A stretch of 64,000 bases of DNA, taken from contig NZ_JAFCLN010000004.1 of assembly GCF_018129385.1 (NCBI RefSeq), positions 1 through 64,000 on the forward strand. Reading direction: 5' to 3'. The stretch comes from Bradyrhizobium lablabi (GTDB taxonomy: Bacteria; Pseudomonadota; Alphaproteobacteria; Rhizobiales; Xanthobacteraceae). Numbering within the stretch: position 1 is the first letter of the stretch; the number at the start of each line of letters is the position of its first letter. The notes under the pieces are model-generated. The model saw only the letters and a program-made list of their open reading frames with translations. It searched no databases and was not told the DNA's origin. A program made the position numbers and the translations under genes. This document shows positions 18,458-31,152 of the stretch, piece by piece.

Positions 18458-18531
18458 TGGGGAATGGTGTAACGGTAGCACAACAGACTCTGACTCTGTT
18501 TGTCTTGGTTCGAATCCAGGTTCCCCAGCCA
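18458..18531 (+). tRNA. tRNA-Gln (anticodon CTG)
   Basis: A complete cloverleaf. The acceptor stem TGGGGAA pairs with TTCCCCA, followed by discriminator G and an encoded CCA. The D-arm is around gtgtaacggtagcac. The anticodon stem ACAGA/TCTGT has the 7-nt loop CTCTGAC, anticodon CTG at its centre, reading CAG glutamine codons. The T-arm has GGTTCGAATCC. The U1-A72 start is characteristic of tRNA-Gln. The 3' end lies 6 bp from the convergent MBL-fold gene. Confidence 0.96.
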
Positions 18532-18537
18532 CTTCCG

Positions 18538-20100
18538 TCAGAACGTCACTTCAAAGAACAGCTTCTCCTCGACGACGTTCTGCATGGCCGCCGGCTTCGG
18601 CCGGTCGACACGCAAGACGCCGTCCTTGGCCTGCTTATCGAGCGCCTCGGTCAGTTCTTCCTGCGGCATCTTGTTCCAATGCTTCTTGACCGCCATCGCC
18701 CGGTCGACCGGGAGCATGGCAACGCGCAGCCGCTCCATCTGCTCCAGGCCCTTCGCGCGCAGCGTCGCGTTATGGCTGCCATGGTGACCGACCTTGTAGA
18801 AGATCGCATTCTTCAGCAGGTCCGGACCGGTGACCGCCTTGCCGTCCATCGTCCACTTCAGATCCTGCCAGGATAGCCAGTTGCCGACCTGCGCGTCGGC
18901 GGCGAACAACAGCACATCGCCGTCCGGCAATTCGATCGCGATGACGAGACTGGTGTTGTTGGTCAGGCTGTCGAGTTGCAAGGCCAGTTCGGCCGCGCCT
19001 CCCAGCCAATCGGTATCGATCCGCCGCCATTTGCCGGCGGATGTGTCGTCGGGCTGCTGGTCGTCGTCCCGAACGGACTCCGTTTCAGGCGTCGCCTGAG
19101 CATGGTCGGCGGATGCATCGTCGGGCCGTCGGTGGTCTTCACGAGCAGACTCTGCTTCAGGCATCGCCTGAGCATGGACGGCCGGTGCATCATCGGGCCG
19201 CCAGTAGTGATCTCTGAAGAACTTCATTTCGGGCGCCGCCTGCGCATAGGCGAACGGAATTTCGTACTGCCGGTCAAACGGACGACCGCTGTCGCCATCG
19301 ACAAGCGCCGATCCCGCGCCATCCATGAACAGCTGAAAACCGGCGAGCGCCAGGTAAGTCTCCTTGTCCCGGGTGGAAGGGTTGATCTTGCGCAGCATCT
19401 TCTCGTCATGGGGAGGTCCAAGCACATAGAAGCGCGCACTTGTGCCCGCGGGGATGACCGGGGCATCGGTCGGCCGGCAGTAACGCAACCTGGATGAGCT
19501 TACCTTTTCCCGGACGGCCTTCAGCGCATCGCTAGTCGTCGGGCCTCTGGCCGCCCCGAAGAATTCCAGGATTCCACCGAGTTCGTCGGCACCGCCGGCG
19601 TCCCCCGCCAGTTGCATCTGGCTTAATCCCATGCGTAGCGCCGAGAGCGCCAGCCCTTTTTCCTTTTTTATCTTCTGAGTCAGGTCGTCGCGATCATCCT
19701 CGGTCCAGGCGAGCCAGACTTGCCCGACCTTCAATCTGTCGAACGATTGCCGCGCCTGCACAAATCCGGAGAGATGGTCCCAATGCTCGTGCGTTGCGAT
19801 CAGAATATCGATCTCGCCCCCTGTGGTTTCGACGATATCGTCCATCACCCGTGTCATGACCGGGCCGGGATCCGGCGTTCCCAATACGACGCCGCAATCG
19901 ATCATGACGTAAAACGGCCGGCTGCCGCCGTCGTTGCGCGGCAGCGTGATCAGGAAGCAATCGCCCAAGCCCTGCCGGTACATCCTGACCCGCGCCTGAT
20001 ATGAAACGGCCGATCGCGATCGCGCCGGCCGTGCGGATGCTTTGCGGTTTGCCGGACGCGCCGACGGGGCCACCGGCTTCTTCGTCGACTTCTTCGCCAA
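18538..20100 (-). CDS. MBL-fold metallohydrolase (ComEC-like) with internal 24-aa repeats
   Basis: 520 aa. A Lys/Ala/Pro-rich N-terminal tail (1-35) precedes the metallo-beta-lactamase fold: MIDCG (67-70), the metal motif THEHWDHL with His104, His106, Asp108 and His109, FAADAQ (Asp402) and GHHGSH (438-443). This resembles the MBL domain of ComEC-type proteins but without membrane helices. Between the two halves are three 24-residue tandem repeats (285-356; positions such as AQAxPE and PDDA/T are conserved). Translation starts at TTG 20100, set by AAAGGAGG 6 bp upstream. It lies 11 bp after the double protease gene, so the two form one transcription unit. Substrate unknown; hydrolysis of a nucleotide or phosphoester is the family-based guess. 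Confidence 0.8.
   Translation of the reverse strand: MAKKSTKKPVAPSARPANRKASARPARSRSAVSYQARVRMYRQGLGDCFLITLPRNDGGSRPFYVMIDCGVVLGTPDPGPVMTRVMDDIVETTGGEIDILIATHEHWDHLSGFVQARQSFDRLKVGQVWLAWTEDDRDDLTQKIKKEKGLALSALRMGLSQMQLAGDAGGADELGGILEFFGAARGPTTSDALKAVREKVSSSRLRYCRPTDAPVIPAGTSARFYVLGPPHDEKMLRKINPSTRDKETYLALAGFQLFMDGAGSALVDGDSGRPFDRQYEIPFAYAQAAPEMKFFRDHYWRPDDAPAVHAQAMPEAESAREDHRRPDDASADHAQATPETESVRDDDQQPDDTSAGKWRRIDTDWLGGAAELALQLDSLTNNTSLVIAIELPDGDVLLFAADAQVGNWLSWQDLKWTMDGKAVTGPDLLKNAIFYKVGHHGSHNATLRAKGLEQMERLRVAMLPVDRAMAVKKHWNKMPQEELTEALDKQAKDGVLRVDRPKPAAMQNVVEEKLFFEVTF
19033..19248 (-). repeat. three in-frame 72-bp tandem repeats in the MBL gene
   Basis: Three consecutive 72-bp units encode residues 285-308, 309-332 and 333-356. 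Units two and three are most alike at DNA level (for example 'gcctgagcatg' recurs exactly 72 bp apart, at 19096 and 19168), and unit one has drifted. The pattern is a recent in-frame expansion of an acidic linker. Confidence 0.85.
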
Positions 20101-20111
20101 TGACGCCTCCT

Positions 20112-23100
20112 TTACCTGTGCGCGCCGTGCACGAATGCAAACGTCTCGCGACGAACACCGTCCTTGTCGTCGAAATAGTTGGCAAGCAACCCGTAATCTT
20201 CATCGCCCGCGGCGCCGAGCAGCTGTGAGCGTACCTGCTCGCCGATCCTGAGTTTCTTGCGAATGAGGTAGCGTATCTTGAAGGTCGCAGCGTCGATCAA
20301 GAGGGTGCTTCCGCTCCGGATTCTCATGTTGGGACTGGCCTTCGGCCGGAAGGTCTGGGTGATCTCGATCACGATATCGGATTGGATGTTGCCTTCCGGC
20401 CCGACGCGCCGTGCCGGCCGGATTGAATGGACTTCAATGACACGCAGCTCTCCGTCGACGCCGTCAACCGTATGGGGCTGCGGCGCGTTGATGCGCTTGA
20501 GACCGAGATTGCCGATCTCCTCGTCCGTTACAAGGCCGGGATTCATCAGCCAGCGCTGGAACTGCGCTGCGTTCTTCCGGGAATCCTCGAACGCCTTCCT
20601 GCGCTCGACGCGGCGGTCCCACTTGAGCGAAAGCCGATTGAGAATTTGCGCAAGCTTGGCGGCGTCAAGCGGTGACGGCGGAGGCTCCCAGAGCAGACTG
20701 TCCGGTGAGAGGCTTTTCACGTCCTTGGGATAGATACCGCGGTCGCGGAACGCCTCGATGAAAGCAATCCGATAGGCGTGCTTGTCAACAGGCACGAGGT
20801 CGGCATCGGCCGTAATCAGCGCACGAACATATTCGCCGAACGTAAGATCGACCGGCGGACAATAATCAAGCGCTCGAATACACATATCGAGAACGTGGCC
20901 GGCAATCTTGCTCGCTTCGTCCGCCAGTCGATTGACGAGATCCGCGGAGATCTCCTCGTCGTCCGGGAGTTTTCCACCGCCGCCGGTCGCAAGCCGCAAC
21001 AAGTCCGCCTTGCGCCGCTTGTAGATTTGCAGGAAGGCGTTGAACACGGCCGTCACCAGCACGGCGCCGCGATCATGCGGCTCGGTTGCCTTCTCATAGT
21101 CGGTGCGGCTCGGCTGGTTGGGGGTCCAGCGCCCCTTCTCGCTGGCCTCTTCCACCACGACCTTGCCGATATAATCCCGCAGCGCACCGTATCGATCGGT
21201 GGCCTCGCCAAACTGCGGGGCAAGCTGTCCCAGCAGGTTTTGCTTCTCGAGATCGCCTCTCGTGGTCCTGATCTGGTGCCTTAAGGCTTCGGGCATGGTG
21301 AAATGCTGAAACAGCGCGACGATGTCCGCAAATGCCTCGTGAAAGGCCAGGACATCCGGATTGGTCGGCTCAATCGATCTCCGATGCAGCCCGTGCAGCA
21401 AAGCGTGCGTCGTTTCATGCGCCACGATGTCGTGCGACAGAGCGGTGAAAATGACACCCCCAGGGAACATCGTCCCCGAAGTGACATTCGAGGCCGTGAA
21501 ATAGCCCAGCAGCAGGGCCTTGCGTTCGGGACTGTAATAGGCGTTCCTGGTGCGCAACGCGTGCGGATAAATCCGCAGCCGCCGTATGAATTCAGTTTTC
21601 CACGTTCCGCCGGTCTGGGTCGCGTGTGGCGCCCAGAGTGCGACACGCCCGAGCGCCTTTTCGAAATGGTCTATCGTCTTCATGGCAACCGCATAGACCA
21701 TCTGCTGATGGAACTGCGGGTTCGCCTCGGACGGCGAAATTCCCGACCGGGCAAGGATATGCTGATGGTTGAGGTCGACCGGGGCGTAACAGCACTGGCT
21801 CGCCGGGTCGACATCGATCACCTCGATATATTCACCGACCGGGCCCGGCCCGAGCTTTTCCTCCCAGCGGACATTCAGCACAGCTTCATTGATGTCGACC
21901 GTCTCGAGGCGCGCGCCGATCGATGGATCGTAGGCGTACACGCGCAATGGTCGGTATACCGGCTCGCGTGGTTTCGGATTGGTGGCGTGAGTGAGGTGCA
22001 ACTGATCGAGCGAGTTCGAACCCGGTATCGGGGGCGACGCGACGGTAACCTTGTCATGCGCGCTTACGCCGGCCAGGGCGTCCCGCAGCGCTTTTGAAGC
22101 CCGCGGATCGTCGGCCAGCGCCTCGGCGACACGGCGGAGATCGGCGGGCGATGCGGCCGCGGGGTCTTCCGGCATGACGCTTTCGATCGCGGCGCTTTGC
22201 GAGAGTTGCAGCGCCTCCAGCTCCAGCATCCGCAATTGAACGTCGGGTGCTGCCTGGAGGCCAAGCCCCGTCAAGGTGCGCAGCAATGCGAAGGAAGCCG
22301 TATCGCGCGCGGTCTGGCGCAGCGCTGCCGCCGCGGCTGGCGCCCGCGCGAGCGCCTGATTGGCGCGCAGTTCGCCGTGCCCAAGGCGTTTGACTTCCTG
22401 TTGGTTGGTCTTGGCACTTTCGAACAGCGCGTCACGGATCGCTTCCACCTTCATCCAGCCTTGCGGATAGGCATCGACCGCCGCCCGGTTCTTTTGCAGC
22501 CAGATCGCCGCGGCGGCCGCGACCTGCGGCGTCGCCGCCGACGTTCCCGCACCGTCGAAGTCGACGATGCCGCCACACCCGAGCCGCGCCCACGGCACAT
22601 TCGGGGTCGGCGCGGCAACTGCGGTGCCCATCTTGCTGTCGGGTCCGTAGTTGCCGGCCATCAGGCGGATGCCGAGATCAGCGTAGGGTTTGCCGTTCGC
22701 CATCACACCGCAGGCGGCGACCACGCGGCCAAACCGCGCGGGATACACGATGTTGCGGGTCGGCAAATTGCCAAAATTGTTGCCGGCCGCGGTGACGATG
22801 AAGACGCCCTGCTCGTACAGCGCGTTCACCGCATCCGCCCAGGCCTGCGAGGCGAGGCCCCCCATGCTCATGGTGATGATGTCGACGCGATTGGTGCCCG
22901 CAACATTGAGCTTGTGCACGTAGTCGAACGCCTGCGCGATCGCGCTGTTGCTGAACAGCACGACGCGGTCGGCGACCCGCACCGGCACGATTTCCGCGAA
23001 CGGTGCGCCGCCGAGTACCGGTGACTGCTCCGGCAAGGCCGTGCCGGCGAGGATGCTGAGCGTGCCGGTGCCGTGGCCGAGATTGGTGAGAAGCCCGCTG

Positions 23101-23681
23101 CTCTGGTCGCTGGCGTCGTTCGGATTGCCACCGGCAAAATTGCGCGCGATATCGCGCCGCAATCGCTTCGGCAAGGTCCTATGGGTCGGATCATAGCCGG
23201 TGTCGAAATGCGCAATGCGGACCCTGGACCCCACGTCAGGCCCGCCGATCGCGGCGATGGCATCATCGAACTGCGAATGGGACGCCGCACGGAACCAATA
23301 ATTGTCATTGTCGCGCGGAAAATCCGGATCCTGCTGGTCAGCCGCCTCGCATGACTGCACCAGGGACTGGCCGCCCTCGGCCGACTTCCCGGTAATCCAT
23401 CTCTGCTCGATGTCCGGTTCGGCGAAAGCGGGCGCGGGCGCGCCGGCCACGCCAAAACCCTGCTGCATCAGCGCGTGGCAGATGTCCCAGCCGCTCGCTT
23501 CCGCAAATCCGGGTGGCGGAGTCAGCACGTGCCAGACATCAGGGGCTACAGCGCCAGGCGCCGGCTGCACACCGATGCTCTCGAACAGGCGAGTGGCGGT
23601 GAACGGCACCGGCGCTGCGCCGAAGCTGAGGCGCGAAACAGCAAGGCCCGGCGCGGCCTTCACCAAAATGCGCGGCATCAT
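20112..23681 (-). CDS. S8 (subtilisin-like) serine protease fused to an HExxH (gluzincin-like) metalloprotease
   Basis: About 1189 aa from the tandem ATGs at 23681/23678, just after a strong GGGGAGGGA; the frame continues upstream to 23834 but without another good start. Residues 1-95 look like an I9-type propeptide ending AEPDIEQRW. The S8 domain (about 150-425) has the full triad: Asp160 (HFDTGYD), His203 (GHGTGT), Ser381 (GAGTSAATP), with oxyanion Asn near 301. After a helical linker (about 430-600), a second protease domain carries HETTH (755-759) and Glu782 (HEAFADI), the HExxH...E pattern of M4-like gluzincins. No signal peptide or membrane helix is visible, so it may be cytoplasmic. 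It is followed 11 bp later by the MBL-fold gene. I know no characterised protein with this architecture. Confidence 0.82.
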   Translation of the reverse strand: MMPRILVKAAPGLAVSRLSFGAAPVPFTATRLFESIGVQPAPGAVAPDVWHVLTPPPGFAEASGWDICHALMQQGFGVAGAPAPAFAEPDIEQRWITGKSAEGGQSLVQSCEAADQQDPDFPRDNDNYWFRAASHSQFDDAIAAIGGPDVGSRVRIAHFDTGYDPTHRTLPKRLRRDIARNFAGGNPNDASDQSSGLLTNLGHGTGTLSILAGTALPEQSPVLGGAPFAEIVPVRVADRVVLFSNSAIAQAFDYVHKLNVAGTNRVDIITMSMGGLASQAWADAVNALYEQGVFIVTAAGNNFGNLPTRNIVYPARFGRVVAACGVMANGKPYADLGIRLMAGNYGPDSKMGTAVAAPTPNVPWARLGCGGIVDFDGAGTSAATPQVAAAAAIWLQKNRAAVDAYPQGWMKVEAIRDALFESAKTNQQEVKRLGHGELRANQALARAPAAAAALRQTARDTASFALLRTLTGLGLQAAPDVQLRMLELEALQLSQSAAIESVMPEDPAAASPADLRRVAEALADDPRASKALRDALAGVSAHDKVTVASPPIPGSNSLDQLHLTHATNPKPREPVYRPLRVYAYDPSIGARLETVDINEAVLNVRWEEKLGPGPVGEYIEVIDVDPASQCCYAPVDLNHQHILARSGISPSEANPQFHQQMVYAVAMKTIDHFEKALGRVALWAPHATQTGGTWKTEFIRRLRIYPHALRTRNAYYSPERKALLLGYFTASNVTSGTMFPGGVIFTALSHDIVAHETTHALLHGLHRRSIEPTNPDVLAFHEAFADIVALFQHFTMPEALRHQIRTTRGDLEKQNLLGQLAPQFGEATDRYGALRDYIGKVVVEEASEKGRWTPNQPSRTDYEKATEPHDRGAVLVTAVFNAFLQIYKRRKADLLRLATGGGGKLPDDEEISADLVNRLADEASKIAGHVLDMCIRALDYCPPVDLTFGEYVRALITADADLVPVDKHAYRIAFIEAFRDRGIYPKDVKSLSPDSLLWEPPPSPLDAAKLAQILNRLSLKWDRRVERRKAFEDSRKNAAQFQRWLMNPGLVTDEEIGNLGLKRINAPQPHTVDGVDGELRVIEVHSIRPARRVGPEGNIQSDIVIEITQTFRPKASPNMRIRSGSTLLIDAATFKIRYLIRKKLRIGEQVRSQLLGAAGDEDYGLLANYFDDKDGVRRETFAFVHGAHR

Positions 23682-23824
23682 TCCCTCCCCGCCCGTCGAA
23701 CCCTGGCACGCCAACGTTTGCGATGTCGATGGACTATACGGTAGCTCGCCTTCAGCGTGTGTGAACTGAATAACAAAAAGACGATTGAAGTCGCCGTGCG
23801 GGCTGGTGCTGCCTGCGGATGCCC

Positions 23825-24763
23825 TTATGGCCACGCCGCATATGACGGCCCGCTCCGCGCATGCTCCAGCCTGATCTGCCGCCGGTACGAGCCCGGCGAT
23901 GCGCCGCGATATTTTCGGAAGAAGCGGTTGAAGTAGGCCGGATCGCGAAAGCCCAAGCCGTAGCCGATCTGCTCGACCGGAAGATCGAGCTGTTGCAAGC
24001 GCACGCAGGCTTCGCGCACCAGCCGATCATGGATCAGCGCGCGGGGGCTCGCGCCCTTCTCGCGGCGGCAATGGGCGTGCAGCTTGTCGGAGGTGACGCC
24101 GAGGATTTTGGCGTAGCGCGCCACCGGCCAGCCGTCGCGGTAATGCAGTTCGATCATCTGCAAAAAATTGCCGACCAGCGCCTTGCCGCCGCCGCGCGCC
24201 GACTCGTCCGGCGCATCATGCGCCGCACCGAGCCGCGACAGGTGCAGGCAGAGCAGCAGGAGGTGCGAAGCGATAACAGCGCCGCCGCCGAAGCCGGGCG
24301 TGCGCAGCTCTTTCGCAATGGCGCGGCAGGATTGCGCGATGTCATGCACATGCGCCGCCAGTGCTTCGCCGTCGATCAGCGTGGCGCGGTCGGTGGCGCG
24401 GCGCAGGTGCAGCGCTTCCGGGCAAGCGGCGATGCTCTTGATCAGAAAGTCGTCGTCGATCGACAGCAAAAATCCGTCGGCCCCGGCGCCGACGTCGAGC
24501 GACGCATCGAGATTGTTCGGCAGCCACAGCAGCGCAGGCGCGCCCAGCGCAACGCTCGTCCCCTGCCATGACGCGGTGCCGCGGTCGGACTGCAACAGCA
24601 AAAGATGCGCCCGCTTCTCGCCCTTCTGCCGGACAACCCAGGAGCGCTTCGCCAGCGCGGCCGAAAACGGCTCGGCGCGCACCGCCAGCGCCACCCCCAC
24701 CGGCAATCCGTTCAGCCCCGCCGACGTCAGCAACGCTTCCCCCTGAGACAATCCGCCGCCCAT
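23825..24763 (-). CDS. AraC family transcriptional regulator
   Basis: 312 aa. The N-terminal half (1-190) is a cupin-like ligand domain of the AraC-binding type, and the C-terminal HTH_18 domain (about 205-300) has both helix-turn-helix motifs: VARYAKILGVTSDKLHAHCR and VEQIGYGLGFRDPAYFNRFF, followed by RKYRGASPGSYRR. It is divergent from the Liv-type ABC transporter and aldehyde dehydrogenase genes with 142 bp between starts, so it is the likely activator of that operon. The ligand is presumably the transported substrate. Confidence 0.92.
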   Translation of the reverse strand: MGGGLSQGEALLTSAGLNGLPVGVALAVRAEPFSAALAKRSWVVRQKGEKRAHLLLLQSDRGTASWQGTSVALGAPALLWLPNNLDASLDVGAGADGFLLSIDDDFLIKSIAACPEALHLRRATDRATLIDGEALAAHVHDIAQSCRAIAKELRTPGFGGGAVIASHLLLLCLHLSRLGAAHDAPDESARGGGKALVGNFLQMIELHYRDGWPVARYAKILGVTSDKLHAHCRREKGASPRALIHDRLVREACVRLQQLDLPVEQIGYGLGFRDPAYFNRFFRKYRGASPGSYRRQIRLEHARSGPSYAAWP

Positions 24764-24905
24764 CGGCGGGCTTATTTGCCAGAAACGTACAATCTTTCTC
24801 CGGCTTCGTCCAATTCCAAACCGCTTCTCTCCGCTCTTAACGTCAGCGCGATCACGAGCGCCGCAAACGGCGCCGCATCAACGCATCTTTGGGGAGGGAG
24901 AGACC

Positions 24906-26129
24906 ATGAGGAAAAGCATCACGCGGCGCGCCGCGCTCTGGCTGACCGCCGGCGCCGCGACACTCGGGCTGGTTGCAACAGCCAGCGCGCAGACGTCGAT
25001 CAAGATCGGCTACGCCATCTCGAAGACCGGCCCGAACACCGGCGGCGCCGCGGTCACGACCATTCCGAATTACGAACTGTGGGTAAAGGAAGTGAACGCC
25101 GCCGGCGGCATCAAGCTTGGCGACAAGCGCGTGCCGATCGAGGTGGTCCAGTACGACGACCGTTCGAATGCGGAAGAAGCCGTGCGCGCGATCGAACGCC
25201 TGATCAACCAGGACAAGGTCGATTTCATCCTGCCGCCCTGGGGCACCGGCCTCAACCTCGCGGTTGGCCCGACCCTGAACAAGGAAGGCTATCCGCACCT
25301 CGCCGCCACCGCTGTCACCGACCGCGCGCCGGAACTGGCAAAGCGCTGGCCGAACAGTTTTTGGTTGCTCGGCACCAGCGCCGACGCCGCCAAGACGCTG
25401 GTGGAGTTGCTCACCAAACTGCGCAGCGAAAAGAAGATCGGCGACACCGTCGCGATGGTGTCGATCGCCGACGGCTTTGGCATCGATCTCTCCGCCGCCG
25501 GCCGCAAGGCGCTGACCGACGCCAAGTTCAAGCTCGCGTACGACAAGACCTATCCGATCGGCACGCAGGATCTCTCGCCCATCATCAACGAGGTGAAGGC
25601 GCTCAATCCTGATACCTTCATCGCCTTCTCCTATCCACCGGATACGCTCGCCATTACCGAACAGGCGCGCATCGCCGGCCTCAATCCAAAAGTCTTCTAC
25701 ACCGGCGTCGGCACGGCGTTTCCGCTGTTCCGCGCCAAATTCGGCAAGAACGCCGAAGGCGTGATGGGCATCGGCGGCTGGAACGGCGATAGCCCGGCGA
25801 TCAAGGATTATCTCGCCAGACACAAGGCCTCCGCCGCCAACGGCGCCGAGCCCGACCGCTGGGCCAGCGCCGTCACCTACGCCTCCTTGCAGATGCTCCA
25901 GCAGGCCATCGAGAAAGTCGGCAAGGTCGATCGCCCCGCCGTCATCAAGGAATTGCAGACCGGCACGTTCGACACCGTGATCGGCAAGGTGAAGCTCGAG
26001 AATAACATGCCGACCAAATACTGGTGGGTCGGCCAGTGGCAGGGCGGCGAGTTCTATGGCGTCGCGCCCACCGGCAATGAAGGCGTGCGTGCGGTGATCA
26101 CGCCGAAGCCGGCCTGGGTTGCGCCGTAG
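24906..26129 (+). CDS. ABC transporter substrate-binding protein, Liv type
   Basis: 407 aa. A signal peptide with a twin-arginine-like start (KSITRRAALWLTAGAATLG), cleavage near ASAQ, precedes a Peripla_BP_6 domain (IKIGYAISKTGPNTGGAAV; YELWVKEVNAAGGIKLG). It is the first gene of an operon with two permeases, two ATPases and an aldehyde dehydrogenase. A GGGAGGGAGA ribosome site precedes the ATG. Liv-type binding proteins next to aldehyde dehydrogenases often serve aromatic or short-chain carbon sources; the ligand is not readable. A 288-bp spacer with a repeat separates it from the permease gene. Confidence 0.92.
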   Translation: MRKSITRRAALWLTAGAATLGLVATASAQTSIKIGYAISKTGPNTGGAAVTTIPNYELWVKEVNAAGGIKLGDKRVPIEVVQYDDRSNAEEAVRAIERLINQDKVDFILPPWGTGLNLAVGPTLNKEGYPHLAATAVTDRAPELAKRWPNSFWLLGTSADAAKTLVELLTKLRSEKKIGDTVAMVSIADGFGIDLSAAGRKALTDAKFKLAYDKTYPIGTQDLSPIINEVKALNPDTFIAFSYPPDTLAITEQARIAGLNPKVFYTGVGTAFPLFRAKFGKNAEGVMGIGGWNGDSPAIKDYLARHKASAANGAEPDRWASAVTYASLQMLQQAIEKVGKVDRPAVIKELQTGTFDTVIGKVKLENNMPTKYWWVGQWQGGEFYGVAPTGNEGVRAVITPKPAWVAP

Positions 26130-26139
26130 GGGAGCGGCA

Positions 26140-26290
26140 GTGTGCCCCCTCTCCCGCTCTTCGCGGGGGAGGGTCGGGGTGGGGGTGTCTCCGCATCGGG
26201 ATTCCCTGCGTGGAGAGAGCCCCCACCCGCCGCGCTCTTTGAACGCGTCGGCCTCCCCCGCAAGCGGCAGAGGCGAAGCGAGCAAGCCGC
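26140..26290. repeat. intergenic palindromic repeat, family A (copy 2)
   Basis: 'ccccctctcccgctcttcgcgggggagggtc' type arms with 'ctcccccgcaagcgg' further on, the same family as 60-245. It sits between the binding-protein gene and the first permease gene and may reduce downstream expression or stabilise the upstream message. Confidence 0.65.
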
Positions 26291-26417
26291 TACGCTCCCG
26301 CGAACCCAGATGCGATCGCCCGGCCCCTCTGTCGGATAGGTGCAGAGTTCGCCTTCAAGACTTCCATTTAATGAGACAGACCCCCCGTCGTATGCCCCGC
26401 CCAACCGGTCTAAACCC

Positions 26418-27287
26418 ATGACGAACGCCATCCTGGCCGGCTTGATGCTGGGCGGCATGTACGCGCTGACGGCGATGGGGCTGACGCTCCAATACGGCGT
26501 GGCGCGGATCATGAACCTGTCCTATGGCGAGTTCCTGATCGCCGCCGCCTTTGCATCCTACTGGCTGTTCACGGGCTGGGCGCTCAGCCCATTCCTGGGA
26601 TTGGCGTTCGTCGTCCCCCTCGCCTTCGTCGCAAGCTTCATCGTCTACCGCGTGCTGCTCACCCCGCTGGTGAACCGCGCCAGGAACCGCGACGCGCTCG
26701 AGGTCGACAGCATTCTGGCGACCTTCGGCCTCACCTTCATCATCCAGGGCGCGATGCTGTCGATGTTCGGCGGTGCCTATCACAGCTACTCCTTCCTCGC
26801 TTTCCCGGTTGAGCTGCTGGGCACCACGATTGCCGCCAACCGACTTGCCGCACTGGCGGTGGCGGTGCTGCTCGGTGCCATGCTGTATCTGGCGCTGACC
26901 AAGACGCGGATCGGCACCGCCATCCGCGCCGTCGCCGTCGATCCCTCCGCCGCGCAGCTCGTCGCCATCGACGTGCCGCGCATCTCCGCACTGACCTTCG
27001 CGCTCGGCGGCGCGCTGGTTGCGGCCGCCGGCGTTCTCGTCAGCACCTTCCTCACCTTCAACGCCTCGTCCGGCGTCGTCTTCACCATGAAGGCGCTGAT
27101 CATCGTCGTCATGGGCGGCGTCGGCAACATTCTGGGCTGCCTGATCGCCGGATTGGCGCTCGGTCTCAGCGAGTCGCTCGTTGCCACCCTGGTCGATCCC
27201 GGCCTCACGCTCGCGGTAAATTTTGCGCTGTTCCTCGCGGTGCTCCTGATCAAACCCGCCGGCCTGTTCGGAAGGGCCGCACGATGA
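26418..27287 (+). CDS. branched-chain amino acid-type ABC transporter permease (LivH-like)
   Basis: 289 aa with about eight membrane helices of the BPD_transp_2 family. It opens with MTNAILAGLMLGGMYALTAM and LQYGVARIMNLSYGEFLIAA, typical of LivH, and ends IKPAGLFGRAAR. The ATG at 26418 is chosen; upstream open frame lies in the repeat spacer. It overlaps the LivM-like gene by 4 bp (ATGA), indicating coupled translation. It forms the membrane pore together with the LivM-like subunit. Confidence 0.93.
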   Translation: MTNAILAGLMLGGMYALTAMGLTLQYGVARIMNLSYGEFLIAAAFASYWLFTGWALSPFLGLAFVVPLAFVASFIVYRVLLTPLVNRARNRDALEVDSILATFGLTFIIQGAMLSMFGGAYHSYSFLAFPVELLGTTIAANRLAALAVAVLLGAMLYLALTKTRIGTAIRAVAVDPSAAQLVAIDVPRISALTFALGGALVAAAGVLVSTFLTFNASSGVVFTMKALIIVVMGGVGNILGCLIAGLALGLSESLVATLVDPGLTLAVNFALFLAVLLIKPAGLFGRAAR

Positions 27288-28228
27288 CTGCGCGCAACCT
27301 TCTCCTTGGCATTATCGCGCTGGCCGCAATTGCGGCTCTGGCAGCCGTACCGCGCTTCGTGAATGCCTATTACCTCGCGCTCGCCATCAGCCTCTTGCAG
27401 TACACCGTGCTCGCCACCGCCTGGGGTCTGTTCTCCGGCCCAACGCGCTACGTCTCGCTCGCCACCACCGCCTTCTTCGGCGTCGGCGCCTATACCGTCG
27501 CCGTGCTTGGCGAAGTCTTGCCATGGCCGCTGGTGCTGCTGATTGCGGCGGGCCTCGGTGCGATCCTTGCCGCGATCGTCGGGCTTTCCACGCTCCGCCT
27601 GAGCGGCGTCTATTTCGTCATCTTCACCTTCGGCCTTGCCGAATTGGTGCGCCAGCTCGTGGTCTGGTTCGAGGTCAACAAGTCGCGCGTGCTCGGCCGC
27701 TACGTCTTCGTCGATATCACGCAAGTCCACATCTACTGGCAATTGCTGGCGCTGGCCGTCGCCGTCTTCGTGGTCGGCTGGCTGATTGCGCGCTCGCGCA
27801 TCGGCTTTGCGCTCCGCATCATCGGCCAGGACGAGACCGTCGCCACCCATTGCGGCATCAACACCACGATCGTGAAGGTGCTGCTGTTCACCATCAGCGC
27901 CACCGTCATGAGCGTGGTCGGCGCAATCATGGCGCCGCGCTGGACCTATATCGAGCCGTCGATCGCCTTCAATTCGATGATCTCGTTCCAAGTGCTGATC
28001 ATGGCGCTGCTCGGCGGCGCCGACCGGCTCTGGGGTCCCGTGCTTGGCGCCGTGCCGCTGACGCTGCTGTTCGAGGTGCTGAGCGCCCGTTTTCCCAACA
28101 CGTTTACGATTATCCTCGGCTGCATCTTCCTCTTGATCGTCTACCTGCTGCCGCGCGGCGTCGCCGGCCTGATCGAAACGGCGCGCACAAAATTTTCCCG
28201 GCCGCGCCTCAGCGAGGCCGCGACATGA
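27284..28228 (+). CDS. branched-chain amino acid-type ABC transporter permease (LivM-like)
   Basis: 314 aa, about nine membrane helices. The LivM signature region is present: YFVIFTFGLAELVRQLVVWF, and GFALRIIGQDETVATHCGIN followed by the helix pair with VGAIMAPRWTYIEPSIAF. It ends with the family-typical LLPRGVAGLIE. It partners the LivH-like permease. ATGA overlaps at both ends show a tightly coupled operon. Confidence 0.93.
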   Translation: MTARNLLLGIIALAAIAALAAVPRFVNAYYLALAISLLQYTVLATAWGLFSGPTRYVSLATTAFFGVGAYTVAVLGEVLPWPLVLLIAAGLGAILAAIVGLSTLRLSGVYFVIFTFGLAELVRQLVVWFEVNKSRVLGRYVFVDITQVHIYWQLLALAVAVFVVGWLIARSRIGFALRIIGQDETVATHCGINTTIVKVLLFTISATVMSVVGAIMAPRWTYIEPSIAFNSMISFQVLIMALLGGADRLWGPVLGAVPLTLLFEVLSARFPNTFTIILGCIFLLIVYLLPRGVAGLIETARTKFSRPRLSEAAT

Positions 28229-28971
28229 GCAACACGCTCCAGCCGGTCATCGCGGTCAACGGCCTGAAGCGTGCCTTCGGCGGTCTCGTCGCCGTCAACG
28301 ATCTCGGTTTTTCCGTCGAGCGCGGCGAAATCCTTGGCCTGCTCGGCCCGAACGGCTCCGGCAAGACCACCGCGCTCAACCTGATGTCCGGCGTGCTGCG
28401 CCCCGATGCCGGGACGATCCGCCTCAACGGTCAGGACATCGCCGGCCTGCCCTCCTACCGCATCGCCCGCCTCGGCCTCGCCCGCACCTTCCAGCTCGTG
28501 CGCGTGCTCGACGGCATGAACTGCCGCGAGAACGTCGAGGCCGGCATCGCCTTCCATCGCCCGCATCTCTCGGCCGCCGACACATCGGCGCGCATCGATC
28601 ACTTGCTCGATCGCGTTGGCCTTGGCGGACACGACCTGCGGCCCGCGGCCGACCTCACCTATATCGACCGCAAGCGGCTGGAGCTCGCCCGCGCGCTGGC
28701 GTCAAAGCCCGCTTTGCTGCTACTCGACGAATGGCTGGCCGGCCTCAATCCGTCGGAGCTCGGCATCGGCATCGATCTGATCCGCTCGCTCAGGAATGAC
28801 GGCGCCACCATCATCCTCGTCGAGCATGTGATGGCCGCGGTGCGCGCCCTGTGCGACCGCTGCGTCGTCATGAGCAGCGGCCGCAAGATCGCGGAAGGCA
28901 CTACGACGGACGTGCTGTCCGATGCGGCCGTCGTCAAGGCCTATCTCGGCGGGGTGGCCGCCGATGCTTAA
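28225..28971 (+). CDS. ABC transporter ATP-binding protein (LivG-like)
   Basis: 248 aa. Walker A is GPNGSGKTT (41-49) and Walker B is ALLLLDEWLAGL. The signature loop reads LTYIDRKRLELARAL in place of the usual LSYGQQRRLEIARAL, a visible departure from LSGGQ that LivG proteins partly share. The C-terminal GTTTDVLSDAAVVKAYLGG tail is the LivG hallmark. It energises the LivH/LivM-like permeases. The open frame extends far upstream inside the livM-like gene, but the ATG overlapping its stop (28225) is the start. Confidence 0.92.
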   Translation: MSNTLQPVIAVNGLKRAFGGLVAVNDLGFSVERGEILGLLGPNGSGKTTALNLMSGVLRPDAGTIRLNGQDIAGLPSYRIARLGLARTFQLVRVLDGMNCRENVEAGIAFHRPHLSAADTSARIDHLLDRVGLGGHDLRPAADLTYIDRKRLELARALASKPALLLLDEWLAGLNPSELGIGIDLIRSLRNDGATIILVEHVMAAVRALCDRCVVMSSGRKIAEGTTTDVLSDAAVVKAYLGGVAADA

Positions 28972-29686
28972 GGTCGCAAATCTCAGCGTGGCCTATGGCC
29001 AGCACCGCGCGCTCGACAAGGTCGCGGTCGAGATCGCACAAGGCGAAATCGTCACGATCCTCGGCGCCAACGGCGCCGGCAAGTCCTCGCTGCTAAAGGC
29101 CATCGCCGGTGTGGTGAAGACATTGCCGGGCAAGCAGGTCTCGCTCGGCACGCATGACCTTTCATCCCTGCCCGCACACGAGATCGTCGAGCGCGGACTG
29201 GCGCTGGTGCCCGAGGGCCGTGGCATCTTCGGCGACCTCACCGTGAAGGAAAACCTCCTGCTCGGCGCCAACCCGAAGCGGGCCCGCGACGGCGAGGATA
29301 TCAGGCGTGAAAAGGTCCTGACCCTGTTCCCGCGGTTGCGCGAGCGTTCCGCTCAGATTGCGCGCACCATGAGCGGCGGCGAGCAGCAGATGCTGGCAAT
29401 CGGCCGGGCGCTGATGTCGAACCCGGATATCCTCCTGCTCGACGAGCCCTCGCTCGGCCTGTCGCCGATCATGGTGCACGAACTGTTCGCCACGCTCCGC
29501 CGGGTGCGCGAGGCCGGCGTCGGCCTGTTGCTGGTCGAACAGAACGCGCAGGAAAGTCTTGCCATCGCCGACCGCGGCTATGTCCTTGAAAACGGCAGCA
29601 TCGTCGATCACGACAGCGCGGAAAATCTGAAGACAAAACCCGCGATCCTGCGGGCCTATCTCGGCGGCGAACCCGCCCAAACTTGA
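28964..29686 (+). CDS. ABC transporter ATP-binding protein (LivF-like)
   Basis: 240 aa starting at the ATG (MLKVANLSVAYGQ) that overlaps the end of the livG-like gene by 8 bp. Walker A is GANGAGKSS, the signature TMSGGEQQMLAIGRAL, and Walker B DILLLDEPSLGLSP. GRGIFGDLTVKENLLLGA is typical of LivF. It is the second nucleotide-binding subunit of the transporter. Confidence 0.93.
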   Translation: MLKVANLSVAYGQHRALDKVAVEIAQGEIVTILGANGAGKSSLLKAIAGVVKTLPGKQVSLGTHDLSSLPAHEIVERGLALVPEGRGIFGDLTVKENLLLGANPKRARDGEDIRREKVLTLFPRLRERSAQIARTMSGGEQQMLAIGRALMSNPDILLLDEPSLGLSPIMVHELFATLRRVREAGVGLLLVEQNAQESLAIADRGYVLENGSIVDHDSAENLKTKPAILRAYLGGEPAQT

Positions 29687-29700
29687 CGGAAGGAAACGCC

Positions 29701-31152
29701 ATGCACGAAATCGCTCTCCTGCTCGAAGACCGCGACGCCCCCGCCGCCAATGGCGCCACCTTCGACCGCCTCAATCCTGTCACCGGCGATATCGCGAGCC
29801 GCGCGGCCGCCGCGCAAATCGCCGACGCCAAGCGCGCCGCAGATTCCGCGGCAGCCGCTTTCCCCGCCTGGTCCGCCACCGGCCCGAACGCACGCCGCGC
29901 CATCCTGTTGAAGGCCGCCGACATTCTGGCCTCAAAGGCAAAGCAGTTCACCGAACTGATGGCGGCCGAAACCGGCGCCACCGCCGGCTGGGCCGGCTTC
30001 AACGTCCACCTCGCTTCCGGCATGCTGCGCGAGGCCGCTTCGATGACGACGCAAATCTCGGGCGAAGTCATCCCCTCCGACAAGCCGGGCTGCATCGCGA
30101 TGGCGCTGCGCCAGCCCGCCGGCGTAGTGCTGAGCATGGCGCCGTGGAATGCGCCCGTCATCCTCGGCGTGCGCGCCGTGGCGCTGCCGCTCGCCTGCGG
30201 CAACACCGTCATCCTGAAAGCCTCGGAGATCTGTCCCGGCACCCACCGCCTGATCGCCGAATGCCTGCGCGAGGCCGGCCTGCCGCCCGGCGTGCTCAAC
30301 GTCATCACCAACGCGCCGGAAGACGCGCCCGAACTGATCGAGACCCTGATCGCCCATCCCGCCGTGCGCCGCATCAACTTCACCGGCTCGACCCGCGTCG
30401 GCCGCATCATCGCGCAGGTCGCCGCGAAATATCTCAAGCCCGCGCTGCTCGAGCTCGGCGGCAAGGCGCCGATGGTGGTGCTGGACGACGCCGATATTGA
30501 TGCCGCAGTGGCCGCCGCCGGTTTCGGCGCCTTCATGAACCAGGGCCAGATCTGCATGTCGACCGAGCGCATCGTCGTCGACGAAAGGATCGCGGACGCT
30601 TTCGTGGCCAAGCTCGCCACCAAGGCCGGCTCGCTGATCGCCGGCGATCCGCGCAAGGGCAACACGCCGCTGGGTTCGCTGATCGGCGCCGACGCCGCCA
30701 CCCGCATCCAGTCGCTGATCTCGGATGCCGTCGGCAAGGGCGGCAAGGTCGTCGCCGGCGGCCGCAGCGAAGGTACCCTGATGTCGGCCGCCGTGATCGA
30801 TCGCGTCAACTCCTCCATGCGCATCTATGGCGAGGAGTCCTTCGGACCCGTCGTCTGCGTCGTCCGTGTCAATGGCGTCGACGAAGCCGTCCGCGTCGCC
30901 AACGACACCGAATACGGCCTCTCCGCCGCCGTGTTCGGCCGCGACATCGCCCGCGCGTTCGATGTGGCGAAGCGCATCGAGTCCGGCATCTGTCACGTCA
31001 ACGGTCCGACCGTGCACGACGAAGCACAGATGCCCTTCGGCGGCGCCAAGGCCTCCGGCTACGGCCGCTTCGGCGGCAAGGCGGGAATCGCGGAGTTCAC
31101 CGAGCTGCGCTGGATCACGATCGAGACCGGACCGCAGCACTATCCGATCTAA
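29701..31152 (+). CDS. aldehyde dehydrogenase (benzaldehyde/vanillin/salicylaldehyde dehydrogenase-like)
   Basis: 483 aa, standard ALDH length. Catalytic Asn150 (APWNAP), general base Glu251 (ELGGKAP) and nucleophile Cys285 (GQICMSTER) are intact, as is the FTGSTRVGR cofactor loop. Text such as NQGQICMSTERIVVDE is reminiscent of aromatic aldehyde dehydrogenases. It would oxidise an aldehyde to the acid with NAD(P)+. GGAAGGAAA precedes the ATG at 29701. Last gene of the AraC-linked transporter operon, so it probably acts on a catabolite of the imported compound. Its last 4 bp overlap the convergent SLOG-like gene. Confidence 0.9.
   Translation: MHEIALLLEDRDAPAANGATFDRLNPVTGDIASRAAAAQIADAKRAADSAAAAFPAWSATGPNARRAILLKAADILASKAKQFTELMAAETGATAGWAGFNVHLASGMLREAASMTTQISGEVIPSDKPGCIAMALRQPAGVVLSMAPWNAPVILGVRAVALPLACGNTVILKASEICPGTHRLIAECLREAGLPPGVLNVITNAPEDAPELIETLIAHPAVRRINFTGSTRVGRIIAQVAAKYLKPALLELGGKAPMVVLDDADIDAAVAAAGFGAFMNQGQICMSTERIVVDERIADAFVAKLATKAGSLIAGDPRKGNTPLGSLIGADAATRIQSLISDAVGKGGKVVAGGRSEGTLMSAAVIDRVNSSMRIYGEESFGPVVCVVRVNGVDEAVRVANDTEYGLSAAVFGRDIARAFDVAKRIESGICHVNGPTVHDEAQMPFGGAKASGYGRFGGKAGIAEFTELRWITIETGPQHYPI

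Follow-up and report, generated by a model that had tools for sequence, protein, structure and literature searches.

A conserved two-gene cassette joining a subtilisin-metalloprotease fusion to a ComEC-like MBL protein is a candidate nuclease-protease immune module

Introduction

Proteolytic unlocking of a DNase with a metallo-beta-lactamase (MBL) fold is an immune principle that is already published, with proteases other than those reported here (PMC12799240). The MBL proteins of the HamM/Avs1a/CanC group are proenzymes with disordered insertions (PMC12799240). HamM is cut by a trypsin-like partner (HamAB) and is then an active DNase in vitro, Avs1a of the AVAST system is cut upon infection and requires its cut sites, as judged from mutants, and CanC turns into a nuclease, an active DNase in vitro, once it is mixed with the caspase complex CanAB (PMC12799240). 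In the canu system the protease gene lies upstream of the MBL gene (PMC12799240). The same publication mentions further, diverse protease families that its main text leaves unnamed, and the words subtilisin, subtilase, metalloprotease and thermolysin do not occur in that main text (PMC12799240). Here we analyse a stretch of 64,000 nucleotides from Bradyrhizobium lablabi (assembly GCF_018129385.1, contig NZ_JAFCLN010000004.1, positions 1 to 64,000), called the window throughout, and in it a cassette of two genes. The first encodes a large protein in which a subtilisin of peptidase family S8 and a thermolysin-like metalloprotease share one chain, the second an MBL-fold hydrolase related to the nuclease domain of ComEC. 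Supplements aside, we found no description of such a pair in the literature beyond the general statement in PMC12799240. We show here that the cassette is a real, conserved and uncharacterised module, whose function we infer, and that a metalloprotease-MBL pair is its common core, the S8 part being one of several N-terminal modules.

Results

Both genes lie on the reverse strand. The gene of the large protein (20112..23681) encodes 1,189 residues from an ATG and comprises, according to open reading frame analysis, Pfam and an AlphaFold2 model, a pro-subtilisin S8 unit, the thermolysin-like metalloprotease and a long C-terminal region. The MBL gene (18538..20100) encodes 520 residues from a TTG and, by reading frame, Foldseek and hhalign, specifies a ComEC-like protein and candidate gated pro-nuclease. 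The two are separated by 11 bp between the protease stop and the MBL gene. The ribosome-binding sequence of the MBL gene, AAAGGAGG (20106..20113, reverse strand, read by eye), overlaps the protease stop codon and stands 5 bases from the TTG. A preliminary description of this DNA had proposed such a cassette, with this spacing, a TTG start behind AAAGGAGG, an S8 triad of D160, H203 and S381 and an HETTH motif at residues 755-759. Both reading frames, the spacing, the start and the residue numbers were found again in the sequence, and the Glu ligand of the metalloprotease is E782.

Conservation was judged in 79 bacterial and archaeal loci, retrieved via six peptide patterns of the large protein with the best 80 of 272 kept; 56 of the loci are S8-metalloprotease fusions and 23 lack the S8 part. 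Together with relatives from a search of 59 other genomes this set gave 87 aligned rows, and the row counts cover near-copies too, for example L021/L022 and L002/L034. An MBL gene follows directly downstream on the same strand at 63 of the 79 loci, that is at all 23 loci without S8 and at 40 of the 56 fusions, a count that takes in L022, the second copy of the L021 locus, and L044, in which the MBL is split. Two archaeal metagenome-derived loci are among those with a downstream MBL. The distance from protease stop to MBL start codon is at most 60 bp in 58 of 61 loci. The remaining 16 loci consist of 3 that are cut by a contig end and 13 without an MBL (L037, L040, L041, L047, L048, L055, L056, L057, L059, L061, L064, L066 and L069). 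The MBL-less fusions belong mostly to one lineage, since 12 of the 13, along with three contig-cut rows, form one starred group of 15 in a tree made by a quick method, in which the long branches L004, L005, L008, L066b and L087b are flagged. The same tree requires two changes for the S8 fusion, either gain or loss.

The question whether the two genes co-occur in distant genomes, raised in the preliminary description, was also put to a second set. In a sample of 349 genomes from the phylum, which takes in that of the window, 5 are matched by the MBL profile, and the same 5 genomes have a metalloprotease match above 300 bits, adjacent to the MBL each time; in one of them, G276, this latter match is incomplete (22-441 of 647). 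Another six of the 349 genomes carry weak metalloprotease matches only (44 to 154 bits) and no MBL. The two genes do co-occur, at 63 of 79 loci and in these 5 genomes. Evolutionary distances tell the same story. The distances of metalloprotease and MBL correlate at 0.80 over 60 rows, at 0.88 in 36 fusions and at 0.91 in 24 rows without S8, where L086 and L092 are counted because their N-terminal part is not an S8 domain. In the fusions the correlation is 0.85 between S8 and MBL and 0.87 between S8 and metalloprotease. None of 2,000 permutations reached values as high as those observed. That the S8 domain diverges more loosely from the MBL than the metalloprotease does is not shown by these values: 0.85 compares with 0.88, and the difference is not clear, with a mean of 0.03 and a 95% range of -0.006 to 0.071 over 1,000 resamplings. 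Judged from these sequence distances, S8, metalloprotease and MBL travel together in the fusion lineages. At the loci without S8, the metalloprotease and the MBL are the part that is always kept together.

Pfam names the second protein as an MBL barely above cut-off (22.9 versus 22.7 bits), and PADLOC similarities are to LmuA (E 1.5e-11), RTasMBL, Avs1a and PDC-M48B. As anticipated in the preliminary description, fold searching matches it best to the ComEC MBL domain (9ic4; Foldseek E 9.7e-8), and the structure alignment with 9ic4 gives Z 23.4 and a root-mean-square deviation (rmsd) of 3.0 over 254 residues. The metal motif THEHWDH (residues 103-109; 19774..19794, reverse strand) and the motif HH (residues 439-440, within KVGHHGSHN; 18781..18786, reverse strand) are intact, and the ligands H104, H106, D108, H109, D402, H439 and H440 are kept in 64/64 rows; this row count omits L004 and L005, which are cut by the locus end, the copy L022, and L044, which is split in two frames. 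In comparison by hhalign, the MBL profile matches a set of Avs1a-type proteins with a probability of 98.7% (E 1.8e-16, 316 columns). This set consists of one Avs1a above the NCBIfam cut-off (542.7 versus 420 bits) and six weaker relatives. The window MBL reaches 27.3 bits against the same cut-off of 420 and hence is not an Avs1a. The protein nevertheless shares several features with the gated pro-nucleases: a ComEC-like fold, intact ligands, Avs1a-type homology and an adjacent partner protease.

A candidate gate is a variable insertion at residues 231-357 (19030..19410, reverse strand), which stands between a GPP motif (228-230) and WRxID (358-362) and is recognised by low predicted local distance difference test (pLDDT) values and by length variation. 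From F275 to W358 the length ranges from 10 to 375 residues in the 64 rows, with a median of 36 and 82 in the window. Model confidence within the insertion is 53-59 at residues 241-270, 69-79 at 271-300 and 42-50 at 301-360. F275 is invariant in 64/64 rows and P274 is kept in 62/64. Part of the disordered linker is a 24-residue repeat, encoded by three copies of a 72-bp tandem repeat (19035..19247, reverse strand; Tandem Repeats Finder). The gated pro-nucleases are characterised by two disordered insertions, each containing a conserved cut residue; in the window MBL one such insertion is clear, with its disorder at 241-270 and 301-360, and a second length-variable region at residues 135-209 (64-115 residues) is predicted to be helical (pLDDT 82-98). 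Basic residues prevail in the N-terminal tail, which has a net charge of +10 in the window and at least +4 in 45 of the 64 rows. In two places the MBL frame is in two pieces (L044:3901-5409 and G273:C1:3206126-3207644), possibly broken or a sequencing error.

The AlphaFold2 model of the large protein has a mean pLDDT of 87.2 and a predicted template modelling score of 0.59 and is good within domains. Pfam PF00082 covers residues 151-436 (E 8.6e-25), and the catalytic domain spans residues 126-449 (22335..23306, reverse strand), with Z 34.9 against subtilisin 1lw6_E. Pro-Tk-subtilisin chains match model residues 1-449 (2e1p: Z 34.4, 355 residues, rmsd 3.3 A), and the top Foldseek match of the large protein is 3whi, an unprocessed pro-subtilisin. 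Because the pro-Tk-subtilisin alignment starts at residue 1, the first ~90 residues look like a subtilisin propeptide that is still attached; we delimit this propeptide-like domain at residues 1-95 (23397..23681, reverse strand). A linker region (residues 450-572; 21966..22334, reverse strand) follows, in which a stretch at 543-556 between S8 unit and metalloprotease is disordered (pLDDT <50). The window protein has the Asp/His/Ser triad in a subtilisin fold that defines peptidase S8, and D160, H203, the oxyanion residue N301 and S381 are kept in 58/58 S8 fusions. No NCBIfam family scores above cut-off for either protein of the window. Below cut-off, the S8 part resembles the PatA/PatG maturation protease (E 1.7e-11, 43.6 bits versus a cut-off of 421) and mycosin (75.2 bits versus 278.75), and PADLOC labels the large protein a subtilase.

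The metalloprotease region (residues 573-1189; 20115..21965, reverse strand) is defined by an M4-like order of motifs and by invariant sites. Its zinc-binding HETTH lies at residues 755-759 (21405..21419, reverse strand). The motifs NA(F/Y), HExxH and EAFxD follow one another as in M4 peptidases and are colinear with two M4 proteins, and a conserved later His, H869, falls outside the stretch aligned with these two. We take N713/A714, the NA motif, and H869 to have the roles of their counterparts in thermolysin. N713, A714, H755, E756, H759, E782, D786 and H869 are kept in 87/87 rows, so that the conservation of the metalloprotease site, on which the preliminary description had made its case depend, is complete. 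The invariance of catalytic residues in both protease parts goes far beyond what chance would give and fits two working proteases. Similarity to the M4 family as such is faint. Pfam has no family for the window region at E up to 1, PF01447 (Pfam M4) matches 4 of 25 metalloprotease rows with a best E of 2.4e-4, the window not being one of them, thermolysin and neutral protease in the PDB align weakly (E 0.12-0.32), and hhalign against M4 gives a probability of only 21%. Fold searches with the whole protein return essentially subtilisins; the S8 part fills the lists, so the absence of metalloproteases there says nothing. On the basis of its motifs we call the region thermolysin-like and not a member of M4.

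Neither protein of the window has a signal-like or membrane-like stretch by a simple hydropathy rule, in agreement with the preliminary description, which had seen no signal peptide in the large protein. By the same rule a signal-like N-terminal stretch occurs in 1/87 rows (L027), and one membrane-like window each in 3/87 rows of the large protein (L019, L042, L075) and 2/64 MBL rows (L021, L024). With such stretches nearly absent, both proteins are most likely cytoplasmic.

The N-terminal position of the metalloprotease is occupied in several ways. At L086:2-3373 and L092:6633-10001 an alpha/beta-hydrolase-like domain (Pfam below cut-off, best E 3.9e-5) stands in the place of S8, fused to the metalloprotease and with the MBL next to it. 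A patatin gene lies directly upstream of the pair at L020, L071 and L089 and on the plasmids H7, H8, H10 and H11, and just downstream of it on plasmid H23. A DUF2235 gene adjoins the pair at H1, H15, H16 and H18; we take DUF2235 to be the Tle1-like phospholipase family (compare PF09994). Elsewhere in the window's genome, on another contig (L186, G000:C63:75164-76003), an S8 protease, an Avs1a-like MBL and a Tle1-like phospholipase stand in a row, and a genome of the same genus has an S8 protease with an MBL (L187). Three loci are unusual in their arrangement: at L087:1354-9629 two tandem metalloprotease-MBL pairs flank an S8 gene of its own, archaeal L094:5714-7342 encodes a protein with M6 peptidase and caspase matches upstream of the pair, and at G276:C1:85845-91921 (L173, L182) another MBL, closer to Avs1a and encoded on the opposite strand, stands ~2 kb away from the pair. 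The neighbours of the pair in L062, L073, L074, L079, L081, L082, L091 and L095 look ordinary.

The cassette is accessory. The 59 other genomes contain one near-full-length copy (G022, of the window's genus), and 13 have partial S8 or metalloprotease matches. The blocks that flank the window cassette stand in another order in the relatives G001, G019 and G023, which places the cassette at a rearrangement breakpoint (window 18531-31151) between a tRNA-Gln and an AraC-type gene, directly behind the tRNA. The tRNA-Gln gene (CTG; 18458..18531, forward strand, ARAGORN) abuts the cassette, with 6 bp between the MBL stop and the tRNA 3' end. In G001 (C64:83347-93688) the 3' end of tRNA-Gln recurs as a 46-bp copy 10.3 kb farther downstream, and this repeat suggests that an island has integrated at the tRNA, a likely attachment site in that relative. 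Within the window no repeat of the tRNA 3' end was found, and an island bounded on both sides is therefore not demonstrated there. We rejected tRNA attachment as a general feature, with a tRNA gene in only 4 of 46 cassette loci (L024, L043, L049, L075). At L043:12984-13074 (Mesorhizobium) the MBL stop is 15 bp from a tRNA-Val, and this is the only one of the four tRNA-bearing loci that is so placed. Likewise rejected was a phage-borne cassette: 50,697 phage records, searched with the MBL only, gave one partial match, and viral contigs one 27% metalloprotease match.

Matches were found in 39 plasmid records, 21 of them predicted to be conjugative; 5 match over most of the large protein, the others chiefly in its metalloprotease part. 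We examined the neighbourhoods in 17 of the 39 records, of which 14 are annotated and distinct once H6, which has no annotation, and the near-copies H8 (of H7) and H16 (of H15) are set aside. Product names indicate defence genes in 7 of these 14, a number without a control rate. TIR and SIR2 genes occur at H1, DUF1837 with a DEAD helicase at H7 and H11, a CBASS cyclase at H10 and H11, and ThiF-type genes at H13, H15 and H18; DUF1837 is presumably HamA of Hachiman. Suggestive, too, are H9 and H12, where the gene directly upstream encodes an AAA ATPase and an MPN gene lies on the downstream side. Some plasmid copies have peptidoglycan-related genes beside them. Around the MBL-bearing loci of the 79-locus set, a PADLOC scan of 206 of 208 neighbouring proteins (two long ones omitted; tallied by family, not by protein) gave few defence matches, some of them strong: RdrA, a type III methyltransferase and ThsA. 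The near-copies L049, L052, L068, L072, L080 and L084, the copy L022 and the contig-cut L058, L060 and L078 had been dropped before the scan. As read from annotated neighbours, the context supports a defence role on plasmids and is neutral on chromosomes.

Discussion

We consider it moderately probable that these two genes form a cytoplasmic module belonging to the nuclease-protease class of immune systems. Its MBL protein would be a ComEC-like DNase that is held inactive by its insertion, which may lie over or near the active site, and the thermolysin-like metalloprotease region would be its dedicated partner. Once activated, the metalloprotease would cut the insertion and release the DNase, and the freed DNase would degrade DNA, so that the infected cell is stopped or killed. 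The N-terminal pro-subtilisin would add a further zymogen stage, in a place that in other members is empty or taken by an alpha/beta-hydrolase-like domain. The simplest order of events would have the S8 protease on first, which then turns on the metalloprotease in cis or in trans. We infer activation of the MBL by the metalloprotease because homology and anatomy match the published pro-nucleases; cleavage of the insertion, DNase activity, the order of a cascade, its trigger and phage defence itself are proposed by the same analogy. The preliminary description had suspected a conflict system, and this part of it has gained support, because the Avs1a-type group holds pro-nucleases that were shown to be proteolytically activated (PMC12799240). 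The homology of the window MBL to Avs1a-type MBLs and some of the plasmid neighbourhoods agree with the suspicion. None of the three findings that the description had named as refutations came up. The 13 S8 fusions that lack an MBL show that a dual protease can do without this partner.

Several observations weigh against an immune pro-DNase. No counterpart of the cut residues in the published systems, Ile or Gly, was identified in the MBL, and F275, the invariant residue of the insertion, may be structural. A sensor is not recognisable in the two-gene cassette. The 13 S8 fusions without MBL have their downstream DNA present and keep both protease sites, so that there, if not elsewhere, the target of the dual protease is a different one. 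Five of the 14 distinct plasmid neighbourhoods (H2, H4, H5, H14, H23) contain no clear defence gene. Near the chromosomal loci there is no clear enrichment of defence genes, the commonest PADLOC family reaching 4 of 104 and 3 of 102 proteins, and a comparison set of 50 proteins from the 13 MBL-less loci also gives defence families (DpdE, ZorD).

The role of the N-terminal module is the point at which the immune reading divides. A two-stage cascade in one immune chain seems possible, and we put it forward tentatively: a pro-subtilisin would sense infection or be released by it and would activate the fused thermolysin-type protease, which alone would unlock the DNase; in relatives, lipases would replace the N-terminal stage, and the MBL-less lineage would have been redirected to another target. 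The S8 propeptide and the co-divergence of S8 with the pair fit such a stage, and lipase-like modules in the place of S8 fit a parallel effector. The latter possibility leads to a rival wiring within the same immune class that we regard as somewhat unlikely, namely that the metalloprotease is the central switch and that the MBL DNase and the S8, alpha/beta-hydrolase or patatin module are parallel effectors which it releases. Lipase-like modules do recur at the pair, as the L086/L092 fusion, as patatin and as DUF2235, a lipase cannot serve as an upstream protease stage, and the disordered stretch at 543-556 joins S8 to the metalloprotease. However, the S8 part has a propeptide-like domain of its own and so may not need the metalloprotease for its release, S8 proteases without metalloprotease are partners of other Avs1a-type MBLs (L186, L187) and would be the activators there, and the divergence of S8 tracks that of the MBL nearly as well as the divergence of the metalloprotease.

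A role outside immunity appears to us unlikely; the cassette would then serve maturation, quality control or stress as a protease system of the cytoplasm, with an MBL directed at some other substrate. Such a role would accommodate the retention of both protease sites in the MBL-less fusions, the lack of PADLOC enrichment around chromosomal loci and the fact that the S8 part weakly resembles mycosin and the PatA/PatG maturation protease. It is at odds with the sporadic occurrence (5 of 349 genomes) and plasmid carriage, with the homology of the MBL to Avs1a-type MBLs and its ComEC nuclease fold, and with the defence genes beside several plasmid copies. Finally, a secreted protease for predation or an inter-bacterial toxin, also considered in the preliminary description, is highly improbable: peptidoglycan-related genes at some plasmid copies and a peptidoglycan-binding domain in one of 25 metalloprotease rows would suit it, but a signal-like N-terminus occurs in only 1/87 rows, no curated NCBIfam family scores above cut-off, and the partner is a ComEC-like MBL that has no signal in the window.

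If an immune pro-DNase is indeed what the cassette encodes, it adds a thermolysin-like metalloprotease to the trypsin-like and caspase partners, in bacteria and probably in archaea, and it adds a single chain with two protease types. An uncharacterised and unnamed protease family would gain a candidate substrate, the MBL insertion, and with it a question about the order of action. The varied modules (S8, alpha/beta-hydrolase-like, patatin) on one conserved metalloprotease-MBL core would illustrate how stages are added to immune cascades, and the MBL-less lineage offers a natural control for the dual protease acting by itself. A true cascade would resemble eukaryotic protease cascades with their initiator and executioner stages; here the two stages would come from unrelated protease folds.

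Compared with known proteins, each part of the cassette is familiar and altered. The MBL is closest in fold to the MBL domain of ComEC (9ic4), but it comes without the membrane channel and has gained the insertion at 231-357 and the basic N-terminal tail. The S8 unit shares pro-domain, catalytic domain, full triad and oxyanion Asn with pro-subtilisins and intracellular S8 peptidases, and differs from them by the C-terminal metalloprotease fusion in a chain without secretion signal. The metalloprotease region shares with thermolysin (M4) the motifs NA(F/Y), HExxH and EAFxD in this order and a later invariant His, whereas it lacks a Pfam match and a secretion signal and has a long C-terminal region. 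The L186 locus resembles the window cassette in having an S8 protease beside a related MBL, and also holds a lipase-type gene; there, in contrast, the S8 protease has a gene to itself, the 3.4 kb examined showed no metalloprotease, and Avs1a is matched better by the local MBL than by that of the window (77.3 versus 19.8 bits, best piece). We tested membership in the described nuclease-protease systems and rejected it for AVAST type 1, in which Avs1a stands beside a trypsin-like protease fused to a STAND ATPase, as the window cassette has no trypsin or STAND match, and for canu, as the pair has no caspase match. The defining protease differs, and the window pair therefore belongs to neither of the two. 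Set against HamM/Hachiman, Avs1a/Avs1b and canu, its partner is a thermolysin-like metalloprotease with S8 in one chain, not a trypsin or a caspase, and no STAND ATPase, helicase or HamA accompanies it. What the cassette has in common with these pairs is the homologous ComEC-like MBL group, the adjacent protease gene, a partly disordered MBL insertion and an accessory, mobile distribution, and with canu it also shares the order of genes, the protease followed by the MBL.

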